Positions 4,708 through 9,738 of a stretch of DNA of 40,424 nucleotides are shown here, piece after piece. Made by a program: the position numbers and the translations under genes. The first letter of the stretch is position 1, and every line of letters begins with the position of its first letter. The DNA comes from an uncultured Erysipelotrichaceae bacterium (GTDB lineage Bacteria; Bacillota_I; Bacilli_A; Erysipelotrichales; Erysipelotrichaceae). The notes under the pieces are model-generated. The model was not told the DNA's origin. It saw only the letters and a list, made by a program, of their open reading frames with translations, and made no database searches. Location of the stretch: assembly GCA_902766005.1 (NCBI GenBank), contig CACXCB010000243.1:1-40424 (forward strand), written 5' to 3'.

Positions 4708-4732
4708 AAGACGGGTGAAAATCCGTCTTTTC
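4708..4732 (+). terminator. Terminator of the activase gene
   Basis: The stem AAGACGG (4708-4714) / CCGTCTT (4723-4729) is followed by TTCT. It starts 6 nt after the stop codon of the activase. Confidence 0.65.
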
Positions 4733-4797
4733 TTAATGCAATTTTAATGTGCATTAATAGTACCTTAACCCAATCTTAATGCCATCTTATCTACAAT
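4733..4797 (+). promoter_or_regulatory. Tandem 10-11-bp TTAA repeats and -10 box: response-regulator operator for ktrB
   Basis: TTAA cores begin at 4733, 4744, 4754, 4765 and 4776, followed by a TTAT at 4787, so the spacing is 11, 10, 11, 11, 11. Fuller copies read CTTAATGCAAT, CTTAACCCAAT and CTTAATGCCAT. A TACAAT -10 hexamer lies at 4792-4797, and the expected -35 position is filled by the repeats with no TTGACA-like box. This is the arrangement of an OmpR/PhoB-family activator promoter with tandem half-sites on one DNA face. The most likely binder is the KdpE-like regulator encoded at 9040-9738 in the same operon. Confidence 0.65.
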
Positions 4798-4822: not shown

Positions 4823-6154
4823 ATGGTTAAGATTCGTGTGTTTATACGGGATCATCTGACTTCATTCAGAATCATATTGATCGGATTTGTCTTGTTGATT
4901 CTTGTAGGTGCATTTCTTTTAACACTGCCTGTTGCAAGTGCATCGGCAGAAAAAACACCGTTTCTGGATGCTCTGTTTACTTCTGCTTCCGCCACCTGTG
5001 TTACCGGACTTGTCGTTCGGGATACTGCAACGTATTGGTCATCTTTCGGCAAATGCATTATCTTGTTTTTAATACAGATCGGCGGGTTAGGCGTGGTCAG
5101 TGTTGCGGTATTTATGATGGTTTTGAGTGGCAGGCAGATAGGGATTCATCAGCGCAGTGTCATGCAGGATGCAATATCTGCACCCCAGATCGGCGGAATT
5201 GTCAGATTTACAAAATTTTTCATTTTGGGGACATTGCTGTTTGAATCACTCGGAGTCCTGGCCTTGCTGCCGGTTTTTATACCGGATTATGGATTGATCA
5301 AAGGATTTTGTTTTTCGGTATTTCATTCTGTTTCGGCTTTCTGTAATGCCGGATTTGATCTGATGGGTGGCTTTTCCTCACTGACTTTTTATAAAAGTCA
5401 TATATGGCTGAATCTCATCATCATGCTTCTGATTATTGCCGGAGGTATTGGATTCAGCACATGGAGAAATCTGCTGGAAGAAAAATTCAAATGGAGAAAC
5501 CTGAAAGTACAAACCAAAATCATTCTTTTCACTACTGCAGTGCTATTGCTTTTGCCTTATGCTTATTTCTATTGTATCGAGTTTTCCGAATATGCATTAA
5601 AAGAAAGAATACTATTCTCTGCGTTTCAATCTGTAACACCGAGAACAGCCGGATTTAATACATTTGATTACAGTGCAATGTCCGAAGGCGGATTGCTGAT
5701 TACGATTTTGCTGATGCTGATCGGCGGAGCCCCCGGTTCTACTGCAGGAGGAATGAAGGTAACAACGGTATTTGTTCTTGTTTTGGCCAGTATTTCCAAT
5801 CTGCAGAGAAATGAAAATGTCAATTGTTTTAAAAGAAGGATGGATTATTCCGTTATTCAGAATGCATTTTCAATTCTGATGGTTTATTTCTGGATGTTGG
5901 CAGCAGGTACAATCATCCTTTCGCGGGTTGAATCAATTCCTGTTATCCATGCGATGTTTGAATGTGCTTCGGCATTGGGCACAGTTGGATTGACAGTCGG
6001 TATTACACCTGTTTTATCTCCCTTATCTAAAATCATTCTGATTCTCTTTATGTATTTTGGAAGGGTTGGCGGATTAACTATTGCATATGCAGCAGTTTCA
6101 ACAAGAAGAAAAGCTTTTAAAAAATACCCGATGGAAAAAATAGCAATCGGATAG
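4823..6154 (+). CDS. ktrB: Potassium uptake channel subunit KtrB/TrkH family
   Basis: This 443-residue membrane protein is the ion-translocating subunit of a Ktr/Trk potassium uptake system. The length matches KtrB rather than the longer TrkH. Four pore-loop segments with filter glycines can be read: SASATCVTGLVV, SAFCNAGFD, TPRTAGFNTF and ASALGTVGLTVG. A GGAPGSTAGGMK loop, the conserved gating-loop region of this superfamily, lies near the third repeat. It is the first gene of a five-gene run. It starts 26 nt after the -10 box of the tandem-repeat promoter and has an AGGTGG ribosome binding site. The regulatory subunit KtrA follows after 10 nt. Expression is probably controlled by the two-component system at the end of the run. 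Confidence 0.9.
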   Translation: MVKIRVFIRDHLTSFRIILIGFVLLILVGAFLLTLPVASASAEKTPFLDALFTSASATCVTGLVVRDTATYWSSFGKCIILFLIQIGGLGVVSVAVFMMVLSGRQIGIHQRSVMQDAISAPQIGGIVRFTKFFILGTLLFESLGVLALLPVFIPDYGLIKGFCFSVFHSVSAFCNAGFDLMGGFSSLTFYKSHIWLNLIIMLLIIAGGIGFSTWRNLLEEKFKWRNLKVQTKIILFTTAVLLLLPYAYFYCIEFSEYALKERILFSAFQSVTPRTAGFNTFDYSAMSEGGLLITILLMLIGGAPGSTAGGMKVTTVFVLVLASISNLQRNENVNCFKRRMDYSVIQNAFSILMVYFWMLAAGTIILSRVESIPVIHAMFECASALGTVGLTVGITPVLSPLSKIILILFMYFGRVGGLTIAYAAVSTRRKAFKKYPMEKIAIG

Positions 6155-6164
6155 GAGGTGTCAG

Positions 6165-6812
6165 ATGAAAAAGAATATATTGGTCATCGGAGCAGGAAGA
6201 TTTGGCAGATATACATGTCAGAAACTGCATGAAATGGGACATCAGGTGATGCTGGTGGATAAAAATGAAGACAGATTAAATAAAGTTTTGAAATATGCCA
6301 CGAATGCAGAGATCGGAGATAGTACAGATGCTGCTTTTATGCAGACGCTTGGCATTAAAGATTATGACTTATGTATTGTCGCAATAGGTGATGACTTTCT
6401 AAGCTCATTGGAAACAACTTTTTTACTGGATGAACTCGGTGCAAAAAAGATAGTTTCACGAGCCACCAGCGGTTCACAGGAAAAATTTTTACTAAGAAAC
6501 GGCGCAAATGCGGTAGTATTTCCGGAAAGACAACTCGGAAGCTGGACAGCAATACGTTTCAGCTCCGACAACATTTCCAATTATATTGAGTTGATGGACG
6601 GGTATTCAATTTTCGAATTAGCTGTTCCGATTCGCTGGGATAATAAAAAAATCGGTGAATTAGAAGTACGACAGAAATATGGTATCAATATCCTGGGTGT
6701 AAAAAACGGAAGAATGGATATGAATATCAGCTTTGATACTGTTTTGCATTTCGGACAGTCGATGCTGGTGCTGGGAAAAACACAAAGCATACAGAAACTG
6801 TTCTATCTCTAG
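6165..6812 (+). CDS. ktrA: Ktr potassium uptake regulatory subunit KtrA (RCK domains)
   Basis: This 215-residue cytoplasmic protein has an N-terminal RCK_N/TrkA-N Rossmann domain with the nucleotide motif GAGRFG (residues 9-14) and the following acidic residue in LVDKNED. A C-terminal RCK_C/TrkA-C domain occupies about residues 135-215. Proteins of this type form an octameric ring on KtrB and gate it with ATP/ADP; in several Bacillota the RCK_C domain also binds c-di-AMP. Its length is usual for KtrA. A strong AGGAGGTG site precedes the start, and the gene lies between ktrB and a small membrane-protein gene with 10- and 13-nt gaps. c-di-AMP binding here is inference from family knowledge. Confidence 0.9.
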   Translation: MKKNILVIGAGRFGRYTCQKLHEMGHQVMLVDKNEDRLNKVLKYATNAEIGDSTDAAFMQTLGIKDYDLCIVAIGDDFLSSLETTFLLDELGAKKIVSRATSGSQEKFLLRNGANAVVFPERQLGSWTAIRFSSDNISNYIELMDGYSIFELAVPIRWDNKKIGELEVRQKYGINILGVKNGRMDMNISFDTVLHFGQSMLVLGKTQSIQKLFYL

Positions 6813-6825
6813 AAAGGAGCTGTTT

Positions 6826-7068
6826 ATGATGTTAATAAATATCATTGTGATTGCCGGTTTTATCGGATCGGCAGCTCTCATATATTTTATGATCAGTCTT
6901 TTTCTGGATTTCCTTCTTCCGTATAAAAAACCAAAAAGATCTAAATTCTCAAAAGAAGAATTGAGCAGAAAAGTATCTGCAATAAAACTGCCGGATAAAA
7001 ATAAACATATACAAAGAAAATCGAATGAATCCAAACGACTGATATCAATAAAATATTTGCATTTTTAA
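6826..7068 (+). CDS. Small single-span membrane protein in the Ktr/KdpDE-like operon
   Basis: This 80-residue protein has one hydrophobic segment at about residues 4-30 followed by a basic, lysine-rich cytoplasmic-type tail. I chose the ATG at 6826 because AAAGGAG lies just upstream; an open frame reaches further upstream into ktrA without a start signal. I recognise no family. Position between the potassium channel subunits and the sensor kinase suggests a small accessory subunit, by analogy with KdpF of the Kdp ATPase or with small regulators of sensor kinases. That role is inference. The following kinase gene starts 11-32 nt downstream. Confidence 0.7.
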   Translation: MMLINIIVIAGFIGSAALIYFMISLFLDFLLPYKKPKRSKFSKEELSRKVSAIKLPDKNKHIQRKSNESKRLISIKYLHF

Positions 7069-7100
7069 AATCAGATTATATGATAGAAAAAAGGCAGGTT

Positions 7101-9074
7101 ATGAGAAATACGGACGAAGAACAAAGAATCATACTTGTGTGTTTATCTGCATCACCAAGTAATGAAAGGGTAATTCGCTCTGCTTCAAAGATGTTTGTGA
7201 AGCAGAGAGATATCTTTCTTGCGCTTTACGCAGGTTTTTACGAAAAAGATACCAGCCAGGACAAAAGACTGCAGGATAATATGGATTTGGCTAAAGAATG
7301 CGGGGCTCGGGTGGATATTATCGAAAGCAGGGAAGTTGCTTTGACTATTGCAGAATATGCTAAAAGAAACAATGTAACAGATATGTTTATCGGCAGCAGC
7401 GCACCGTCTCATATTCTCCAATCAAAAACCATTTCGGAACAATTGGTTGCTTCATTGCCTGAAGTGGATATTCATATTATCCCCGATGCTAAAGCTTCTT
7501 CTTATCCTCAAGCATACAAAAAAACAAACGGGGTTGTTTGGAATTTCCGTGATCTGCTGATGGTAATCGGCATAATGGCAATTGCAACAGGCCTTGGATA
7601 CTGGTTTTATCATTCCCGATACAGCAATTCAAATATCATTACAATATATATTCTGGCAGTGCTGATTGCTTCGGCGTTAACTTCTCATCAGCTCTATGGA
7701 ATTATTGCTGCAGTTCTGTATATTCTGCTGTTTAATTATTTGTTTATCGATCCTAGATTTACGTTTCTTGTATATGATCCGGAATATCTTGTAACGTATT
7801 TTGTCACGATTATCGCTGCGCTGATAACCGGTTCTTTAGCTGCAAAACTGAAAAGCATAGCCTGGGAATCAGCAGAAACGGCTTATCAGGCTAAGGTCCT
7901 GCTTGATACATCCAATCAGCTGCAGAAAGCGACAAACAGTGAAGAAATGATTCGTATTGCATGTATACAGCTTTCAGACCTTCTGAAAAGAGATATATAT
8001 TATTATAAAATTGATGAAAAAGGGAATATCGCCATGGCGGGGATGTCATTGCGTAATAATGATGCATATAAAGCTGTGGAACTCAGTACGATGGAGAAAG
8101 AGGCAATTCTCTGGACATATGAAAACGGACATCATTCCGGTGCATTTACCAGTCATTATTCCGGCTGCAAATACAGATATTTGAGCATATATACAGAAGG
8201 AGTCCGTTATGGTATTATCGGCATCCGCATGGACCAGAAAAGGCTGACAACTTTTGAAAAAACAATTCTGCTTTCGATCATTAATGAATTTACAATGTCA
8301 TTGGACAATGAAACCATGAATAAGCAGAAACAGTTAGCAGAAATTAACGCAGAGACAGAACGGTTCCGTTCCGGTCTTCTCAGGTCTGTGTCCCATGATT
8401 TAAGAACACCTTTGACCGCAATTTACGGCAATGCCGGCAACCTTCTGCAAAACGGAGATGTCCTGAGCGAAGAGGAGAAAAAGAACATATACAGCGATAT
8501 CCAGGAAGATGCATTCTGGCTGCACGGACAGATGGAAAATATTTTATCCATGACAAAACTGGAAAACAATCCGGATATGCATCTGACACCTGTCAATGTT
8601 GATGATGTGATTGAGGAGAGCCTGAAACATCTGGATCCGCATGCAGATGAACATCATATTTCATTTCAGGAATCCTATGACTGCTCGTTTGCGTTAATGG
8701 ATGCCAGGATGATTGTCCTTGTCTTGACCAACCTGATCAACAATGCGATAAAATATACACCGCCCGGATCGGATATCACCATCGAAAAAGAAAAGAAGGG
8801 AAAACAGATTTGGATTATTGTGAAAGATAACGGCAATGGAATATCTGATGAAGACAAGAAACATATTTTTGATTTGTATTATACCGGCAGGCACAGTCTT
8901 TCCGACAGCTGCCGCAGCATGGGAATCGGATTGAACTTATGTGATTTGATTTTGAAAGCACACCATCAGACAATAGAAGTGGCGGATAATATTCCGCATG
9001 GTGCTCTGTTTCGTTTTTCACTGGAAGTGCTGGGGGTAAATGAAGATGAAAGATTTCAAAATTCTGATCGTTGA
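7101..9074 (+). CDS. KdpD-like sensor histidine kinase lacking the KdpD N-terminal domain
   Basis: This 657-residue kinase has, in order, a Usp-like domain (about 8-130), four closely spaced membrane segments of the DUF4118/KdpD type (about 150-248), a GAF-like region (about 265-400) and a HisKA/HATPase core. His432 lies in SHDLRTPLTAIYG; the N box is NLINNAIKYTPPG, with G boxes DNGNGIS and GIGLNL. Classical KdpD (near 890 residues) has an extra N-terminal ATP-binding KdpD domain, absent here. The Usp domain contains S16-A-S18, then 20 residues, then F39-L-A-L-Y43, almost identical to the SxS-x20-FTAxY c-di-AMP site described for Staphylococcus aureus KdpD. The ATG at 7080 is an alternative start with no ribosome binding site; 7101 has AAAGG. 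It overlaps the regulator gene by 35 nt. Confidence 0.88.
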   Translation: MRNTDEEQRIILVCLSASPSNERVIRSASKMFVKQRDIFLALYAGFYEKDTSQDKRLQDNMDLAKECGARVDIIESREVALTIAEYAKRNNVTDMFIGSSAPSHILQSKTISEQLVASLPEVDIHIIPDAKASSYPQAYKKTNGVVWNFRDLLMVIGIMAIATGLGYWFYHSRYSNSNIITIYILAVLIASALTSHQLYGIIAAVLYILLFNYLFIDPRFTFLVYDPEYLVTYFVTIIAALITGSLAAKLKSIAWESAETAYQAKVLLDTSNQLQKATNSEEMIRIACIQLSDLLKRDIYYYKIDEKGNIAMAGMSLRNNDAYKAVELSTMEKEAILWTYENGHHSGAFTSHYSGCKYRYLSIYTEGVRYGIIGIRMDQKRLTTFEKTILLSIINEFTMSLDNETMNKQKQLAEINAETERFRSGLLRSVSHDLRTPLTAIYGNAGNLLQNGDVLSEEEKKNIYSDIQEDAFWLHGQMENILSMTKLENNPDMHLTPVNVDDVIEESLKHLDPHADEHHISFQESYDCSFALMDARMIVLVLTNLINNAIKYTPPGSDITIEKEKKGKQIWIIVKDNGNGISDEDKKHIFDLYYTGRHSLSDSCRSMGIGLNLCDLILKAHHQTIEVADNIPHGALFRFSLEVLGVNEDERFQNSDR

Positions 9075-9738
9075 AGATGATAAATCCATCATGAATTTAA
9101 TTACAACGACTTTGAAAATCAATCAGTATGCATACATCAATGCCGGCAATGGTACTGAGGCACTTTCTCTATGTACATCCCATCATCCCGATCTGATCCT
9201 GATGGATCTCGGTCTTCCGGATATTGACGGTATTGAAGTGATTCGTACCATTCGCACATGGTCGATGACACCGATTGTGGTCATCAGCGCAAGAGGAGAG
9301 GATGAAGATAAAATCGAAGCCCTGGATACAGGTGCGGATGATTATCTGACCAAGCCGTTTTCCGTCAATGAACTTCTGGCAAGAATCCGTGCTGTACAGA
9401 GAAGGCTGCAGTATCCGGTTATGAATAACGATGAGCAGGCTGTTTTTGTGAATGGGGACCTGAAGATTGATTATGCTTCTTCCCTGGTTACACTGGAAGA
9501 AAAACAGCTGCACTTAACCCCGATTGAATACAAACTTTTGTGCCTTCTGGCGAAGAATGCCGGCAAGGTATTAACACATTCGTACATTATTGATCATATC
9601 TGGGGAAACGGTATAGAATCGGATATTGTTTCCTTAAGGGTGTATATGACAGGCCTCAGGAAAAAGCTGAAAACAGAAAAGGAAGAGAGCCTGATTCAGA
9701 CACATATCGGTATCGGTTATCAGATGATCCGCATGTAA
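9040..9738 (+). CDS. KdpE-like OmpR-family response regulator
   Basis: This 232-residue protein has a receiver domain with acidic pocket E12/D13/D14, phospho-acceptor D56 in LILMDLGLPD, S83 and K105 (DYLTKPF), followed by a winged-helix OmpR/PhoB DNA-binding domain (about 128-230). It is the cognate partner of the overlapping KdpD-like kinase. The start at 9040 or the ATG two codons later at 9046 is equally possible; a GGGGG site lies upstream. The best target in view is the tandem TTAA array at 4733-4790, which has the 10-11-bp periodicity used by this DNA-binding family. No kdpFABC genes are present, so the regulated transporter is probably KtrAB. Confidence 0.9.
   Translation: MKMKDFKILIVEDDKSIMNLITTTLKINQYAYINAGNGTEALSLCTSHHPDLILMDLGLPDIDGIEVIRTIRTWSMTPIVVISARGEDEDKIEALDTGADDYLTKPFSVNELLARIRAVQRRLQYPVMNNDEQAVFVNGDLKIDYASSLVTLEEKQLHLTPIEYKLLCLLAKNAGKVLTHSYIIDHIWGNGIESDIVSLRVYMTGLRKKLKTEKEESLIQTHIGIGYQMIRM

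Follow-up and report, generated by a model that had tools for sequence, protein, structure and literature searches.

How is a potassium importer controlled when the genes that follow it in its operon encode a regulator best known from a different importer? Textbooks present KdpDE as the regulator of the KdpFABC pump, and Trk/Ktr importers are usually considered constitutive or c-di-AMP-controlled. In the window (the whole 40,424-nucleotide stretch analysed here, from an uncultured Erysipelotrichaceae bacterium; the nearest named relatives of its genome are Solobacterium and Erysipelotrichaceae assemblies from the ruminant gut) four genes follow one another on the plus strand in the order ktrB-ktrA-kdpD-kdpE. 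They encode a K+ translocating subunit of the TrkH family (ktrB, 4823..6154, 443 aa; PF02386, E=7.3e-59), an RCK gating subunit (ktrA, 6165..6812, 215 aa; PF02254, E=9.7e-25, and PF02080), a KdpD-like sensor kinase (7080..9074, 664 aa) and an OmpR/PhoB-family response regulator (kdpE, 9040..9738, 232 aa; PF00072 and PF00486). A small open reading frame of 111 aa between ktrA and kdpD (6733-7068), which partly overlaps ktrA, is poorly conserved; it has no Pfam match, and relatives give weak matches at the same place. The kdpA gene is absent from this genome and occurs in only 1 of 60 genus-mates. Upstream, the operon is preceded by the intrinsic terminator of a glycyl-radical activating-enzyme gene (4708..4731, plus strand), with a 9-pair stem, a 4-nt loop and a T tail (-15.5 kcal/mol, z -4.3). 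Between this terminator and ktrB lies a run of TTAA repeats, and we asked which regulator reads it and to what effect.

Exact TTAA copies start at 4733, 4744, 4754, 4765 and 4776 on the plus strand, at spacings of 11, 10, 11 and 11. The preliminary description had counted six copies at 10- to 11-bp spacing, ending at a -10 box. Five copies and the spacing are borne out, whereas the sixth position (4787..4790) reads TTAT; the -10 box is present as TACAAT (4792..4797), exactly 12 nt downstream of the last TTAA. A genome scan for 11-bp TTAA repeats, which had been proposed as a check, found the three-site pattern TTAA-N7-TTAA-N7-TTAA once in the 4.05-Mb draft genome, in the window array itself.

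To learn which of these copies are kept, we aligned 31 ktr promoters from the genus that had been chosen through KdpE homology, independently of the motif. The conserved unit is TTAA-N7-TTAA-N16/17-TTAA-N7-TTAA, that is, four half-sites arranged as two 11-bp direct-repeat pairs. In the window the distal pair comprises TTAA at 4733-4736 and 4744-4747 (4733..4747), and the proximal pair TTAA at 4765-4768 and 4776-4779 (4765..4779). The pairs start 31-32 bp apart, about three helical turns, so that one turn is skipped between them. All 16 TTAA bases are kept in 24 of the 31 promoters and 27 are within one mismatch, whereas 6,200 shuffles of the ktr promoters yielded no zero-mismatch array. Nearly all 31 also carry a -10-like hexamer 12 nt past the last TTAA. 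The alignment contains no conserved copy at 4787, and the extra TTAA between the pairs (4754..4757) keeps its register in only 3 of 46 arrays, where shuffling predicts 0.7 (P=0.03, with the window itself, the array in which the site was first noticed, among the three). The earlier picture of six sites in a row thus gives way to a functional unit of two plus two, because the comparison keeps sites 1+2 and 4+5 and not 4754 or 4787. One could still suppose that in this particular species a contiguous array of five or six sites permits KdpE to polymerise, as the site at 4754 is in register here, at 10 bp, and two other arrays share an in-register middle TTAA. We consider this unlikely given how rarely that middle site recurs and how poorly the TTAT is kept, and a six-site polymer model was rejected on the conservation of the sites.

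The two-pair unit is specific in genome-wide searches. Its strict four-half-site form has one match in the window's own genome and is present in 34 of 60 sampled genus genomes, with exactly one copy in each; the same pattern read backwards, our control, gave no match in the 60. The very AT-rich genomes of this class do produce strict-looking matches by chance, and outside the order control counts are similar to those of the motif, which is the argument for functionless AT-rich repeats. Within the genus, the empty control, the 24 strict promoters and the constant -10 distance leave that explanation with a negligible likelihood, and we regard it as already refuted by the genus control and the promoter alignment.

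The array also keeps company with KdpE. A KdpE ortholog was found in 49 of the 60 genomes, and the strict array in 33 of these 49 compared to 1 of the 11 genomes in which KdpE was not detected (Fisher P=5e-4, an optimistic value because the sampled species are related and hence non-independent). Among the 16 KdpE-positive genomes that lack a strict array, some have a contig end at this point or an array with 1-4 mismatches. Of 30 array loci examined, 26 lie before ktrB and two before ktrA of a ktrA-kdpDE operon; one (G009) precedes a TPR gene with homologues that stand first in the kdpFABC or Trk-type operons of relatives, and one (G028) is an unrelated locus away from any K+ gene, in a genome that is 80% complete and has no detected KdpE. 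Occurrence at many unrelated loci had been named as the finding that would speak against a K+ link; the genus matches that we checked lie at K+ genes bar one.

The position of the unit points to the way in which it may act. Computed with a 17-nt spacer from the -10 box, the -35 slot falls inside the proximal pair and reads CCCAAT (4769-4774) instead of TTGACA, and a consensus scan called no sigma-70 promoter on the plus strand and found no consensus -35. In the PhoB pho box and other class II promoters of the OmpR-PhoB family, 11-bp direct repeats replace the -35 at a fixed distance from the -10. The array shares all of this with the pho box: an 11-bp period, a site over the -35 slot in place of a consensus hexamer, and a fixed -10 distance. 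It differs from the pho box in regulator, core and regulon, and in having two pairs with a skipped turn. A proximal pair over the -35 slot is also where a bound protein could block polymerase, and KdpE might accordingly be imagined to repress this promoter or keep it poised. We think this quite unlikely; the promoter has no -35 hexamer of its own, the fixed 12-nt distance to the -10 suits class II activation, and kdp operons are classically activated by KdpE.

We therefore turned to the candidate regulator. Its best full-length match in the PDB is E. coli KdpE (4kny, E=1.5e-50), and its residues R200, R207 and T221 align with R193, R200 and T215, which E. coli KdpE requires for DNA binding (PMC3264566). 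The E. coli kdpFABC operator consists of the half-sites TTTATA-N5-TTTACA, in which the first two T are invariant (PMC3264566). The array resembles it in being an 11-bp direct repeat of TT-initial, AT-rich half-sites that accompanies a cognate KdpE and a K+ uptake operon. Unlike the single E. coli pair, there are two pairs here, 31-32 bp apart and with TTAA cores, and they stand before ktrBA-kdpDE; also unlike the E. coli operator, the array covers the -35 slot at a fixed distance from the -10. As a kind, the KdpE direct-repeat operator is already known. A position before kdpFABC, which we did not find in this kdpA-less genome and did find in relatives, describes the canonical target of the regulator and does not belong to the DNA site as such.

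The kinase has the DUF4118, HisKA and HATPase domains of KdpD which, along with both domains of KdpE, identify a KdpDE two-component system. A Pfam search and motif scan gave no match to the N-terminal domain PF02702 and no Walker A in this protein, and its USP-like region, for which Pfam has no match, was judged by motif alone. From residue 23 the kinase reads SAS-X20-FLALY, which fits the motif SXS-X20-FxAxY of the c-di-AMP-binding S. aureus KdpD (PMC4686210), and as in that system the genome encodes a protein with a DAC (c-di-AMP synthase) domain. Together these two features make c-di-AMP control of KdpD plausible. We limit the suggestion to this species because a loose motif search matched only 12 of 29 relatives; nor is the exact motif present throughout the genus. 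Unlike in S. aureus, where KdpDE controls kdpFABC, kdpDE here lies within the ktrBA operon. Riboswitches that bind c-di-AMP control K+ operons (PMC6488665), and the present system resembles them in placing K+ uptake in Firmicutes under transcriptional control. Unlike those systems, no Rfam riboswitch family matched in the window, and only 25 nt separate the -10 from the ktrB start, a leader too short to leave room for one.

Together these observations lead us to read 4733-4797 as an activator-dependent promoter of ktrB-ktrA-kdpD-kdpE that carries a putative two-dimer KdpE operator in place of the -35 and is autoregulating, a reading to which we assign a probability of roughly 0.88. The TTAA array is very probably the site of a KdpE-type K+ regulator, predicted from the DNA, that switches on the KtrAB operon; binding by KdpE, the direction of control and the signal are the parts of this reading that we infer. 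Two dimers of phosphorylated KdpE would occupy the two 11-bp pairs on the same face of the helix. With the proximal pair lying where a -35 hexamer is missing, KdpE would recruit RNA polymerase to the -10 by PhoB-like class II activation. When KdpD senses that K+ (or c-di-AMP) is low, KtrAB and KdpDE would both increase, and because kdpDE lies inside the operon the feedback would be positive.

The same operator appears to serve a different importer in relatives. An identical array with the same -10 spacing stands before kdpFABC at nine loci in other genera (L056, L058, L061, L062, L215, L216, L218, L227 and L232), and before ktrBA-kdpDE in another genus (L220) and in another order (L252). For 29 array matches from outside the genus, the -10 lies at +12 in 15 of 15 arrays at K+ genes and in 1 of 14 others (P=2e-7), where the K+ label is looser for two of the 15, L217, in which kdpD is the next gene but one, and L230. 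The genus thus seems to use KdpE for KtrAB, whereas in relatives this operator serves KdpFABC. Since an identical arrangement of sites drives the unrelated Kdp pump there, the transporter differs and the switch seems to have been retained. We lean towards the view that one rigid module of four KdpE half-sites has been passed between the unrelated K+ importers kdpFABC and ktrBA-kdpDE, with regulator and operator kept and the transporter changed; the direction of this evolutionary exchange, too, is inferred. The assignment in the preliminary description of an OmpR/PhoB-type, KdpE-like array at the -35 is well supported at this level, by the conserved layout, the fixed -10 spacing, the operon, the co-presence of KdpE and the kdpFABC promoters of relatives.

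The TTAA core also invites a comparison with phosphate control. The Bacillus PhoP box is an 11-bp repeat of TTAACA type. Another OmpR-family regulator, for example a PhoP-like phosphate regulator, might use the array in place of KdpE: the genome encodes further OmpR-family regulators (34% identity), and elsewhere in the order, in two other genera, TTAACA-type arrays adjoin Na/Pi cotransporter genes. Those phosphate-linked arrays, however, lack a -10 at +12, and the genus array, a single copy per genome that lies at K+ genes, shows no link to phosphate genes of the kind that would be expected of a Bacillus-like PhoP site. As the array further accompanies KdpE within the genus and precedes kdpFABC in relatives, we hold a regulator other than KdpE to be very unlikely. 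Four-site TTAACA arrays adjoin Na/Pi cotransporter-PhoU genes at L223 (4646-4691), L224 (1988-2033), L225, L226 and L228 (minus strand). This suggests that they are possible PhoP-like phosphate operators, read by a second OmpR-family regulator with a similar repeat.

Returning to KdpE as the regulator of the ktrB operon, we searched the genome for further targets. A single-pair motif, allowing one mismatch, gave 43 matches compared to 49 for the reversed control, and with no excess over control we detected no wider single-site regulon. The four-site pattern with at most three mismatches gave 66 matches compared to 104 for its control and, the zero-mismatch match aside, no convincing second target. 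Two other TrkH genes in the genome have no array in the upstream DNA inspected (best matches with 6 and 5 mismatches), although one of them, C275, is located downstream of trkA, which makes its upstream DNA an imperfect promoter control. Since the searches for further targets returned counts at or below control, the KdpE regulon may consist of the ktrB operon only.

In the open-access literature, with subscription papers outside the search, we found no report of KdpDE control of a ktrAB operon. Nor did we find, in the literature searched, an arrangement of two phased pairs that replaces the -35 of a ktrBA-kdpDE operon in bacteria lacking kdpFABC and is common to the kdpFABC promoters of relatives. 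A predicted KdpE operator with a genus-wide layout at KtrAB, and the same layout at KdpFABC in relatives, would represent an exchanged target. If this is true, an importer normally of housekeeping type becomes one inducible by K+ limitation. For gut Erysipelotrichales, two 11-bp TTAA pairs with a -10 at +12 offer a searchable signature of KdpE targets.

Several loci outside the genus carry related features. At L230 an array (2416-2480) lies in front of the gene for a P-type cation ATPase, with two TrkA-like genes after it, which makes this operon a possible further KdpE-type target. The L215 genome has a second complete array with a TATAAT -10 (2110-2173), 2.3 kb from its kdpFABC array; the short peptide encoded after this second array, about 70 aa in length, is predicted to be a membrane peptide. 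In several genera the first gene of kdpFABC or Trk-type operons encodes a small TPR protein (L066:1586-1906, L058 and L227:2257-2682). In genus g6 (L049 and L051) ktrBA and kdpDE are arranged divergently, with TTAATGTTTTCTTAAT-type pairs on both strands of the DNA between them.
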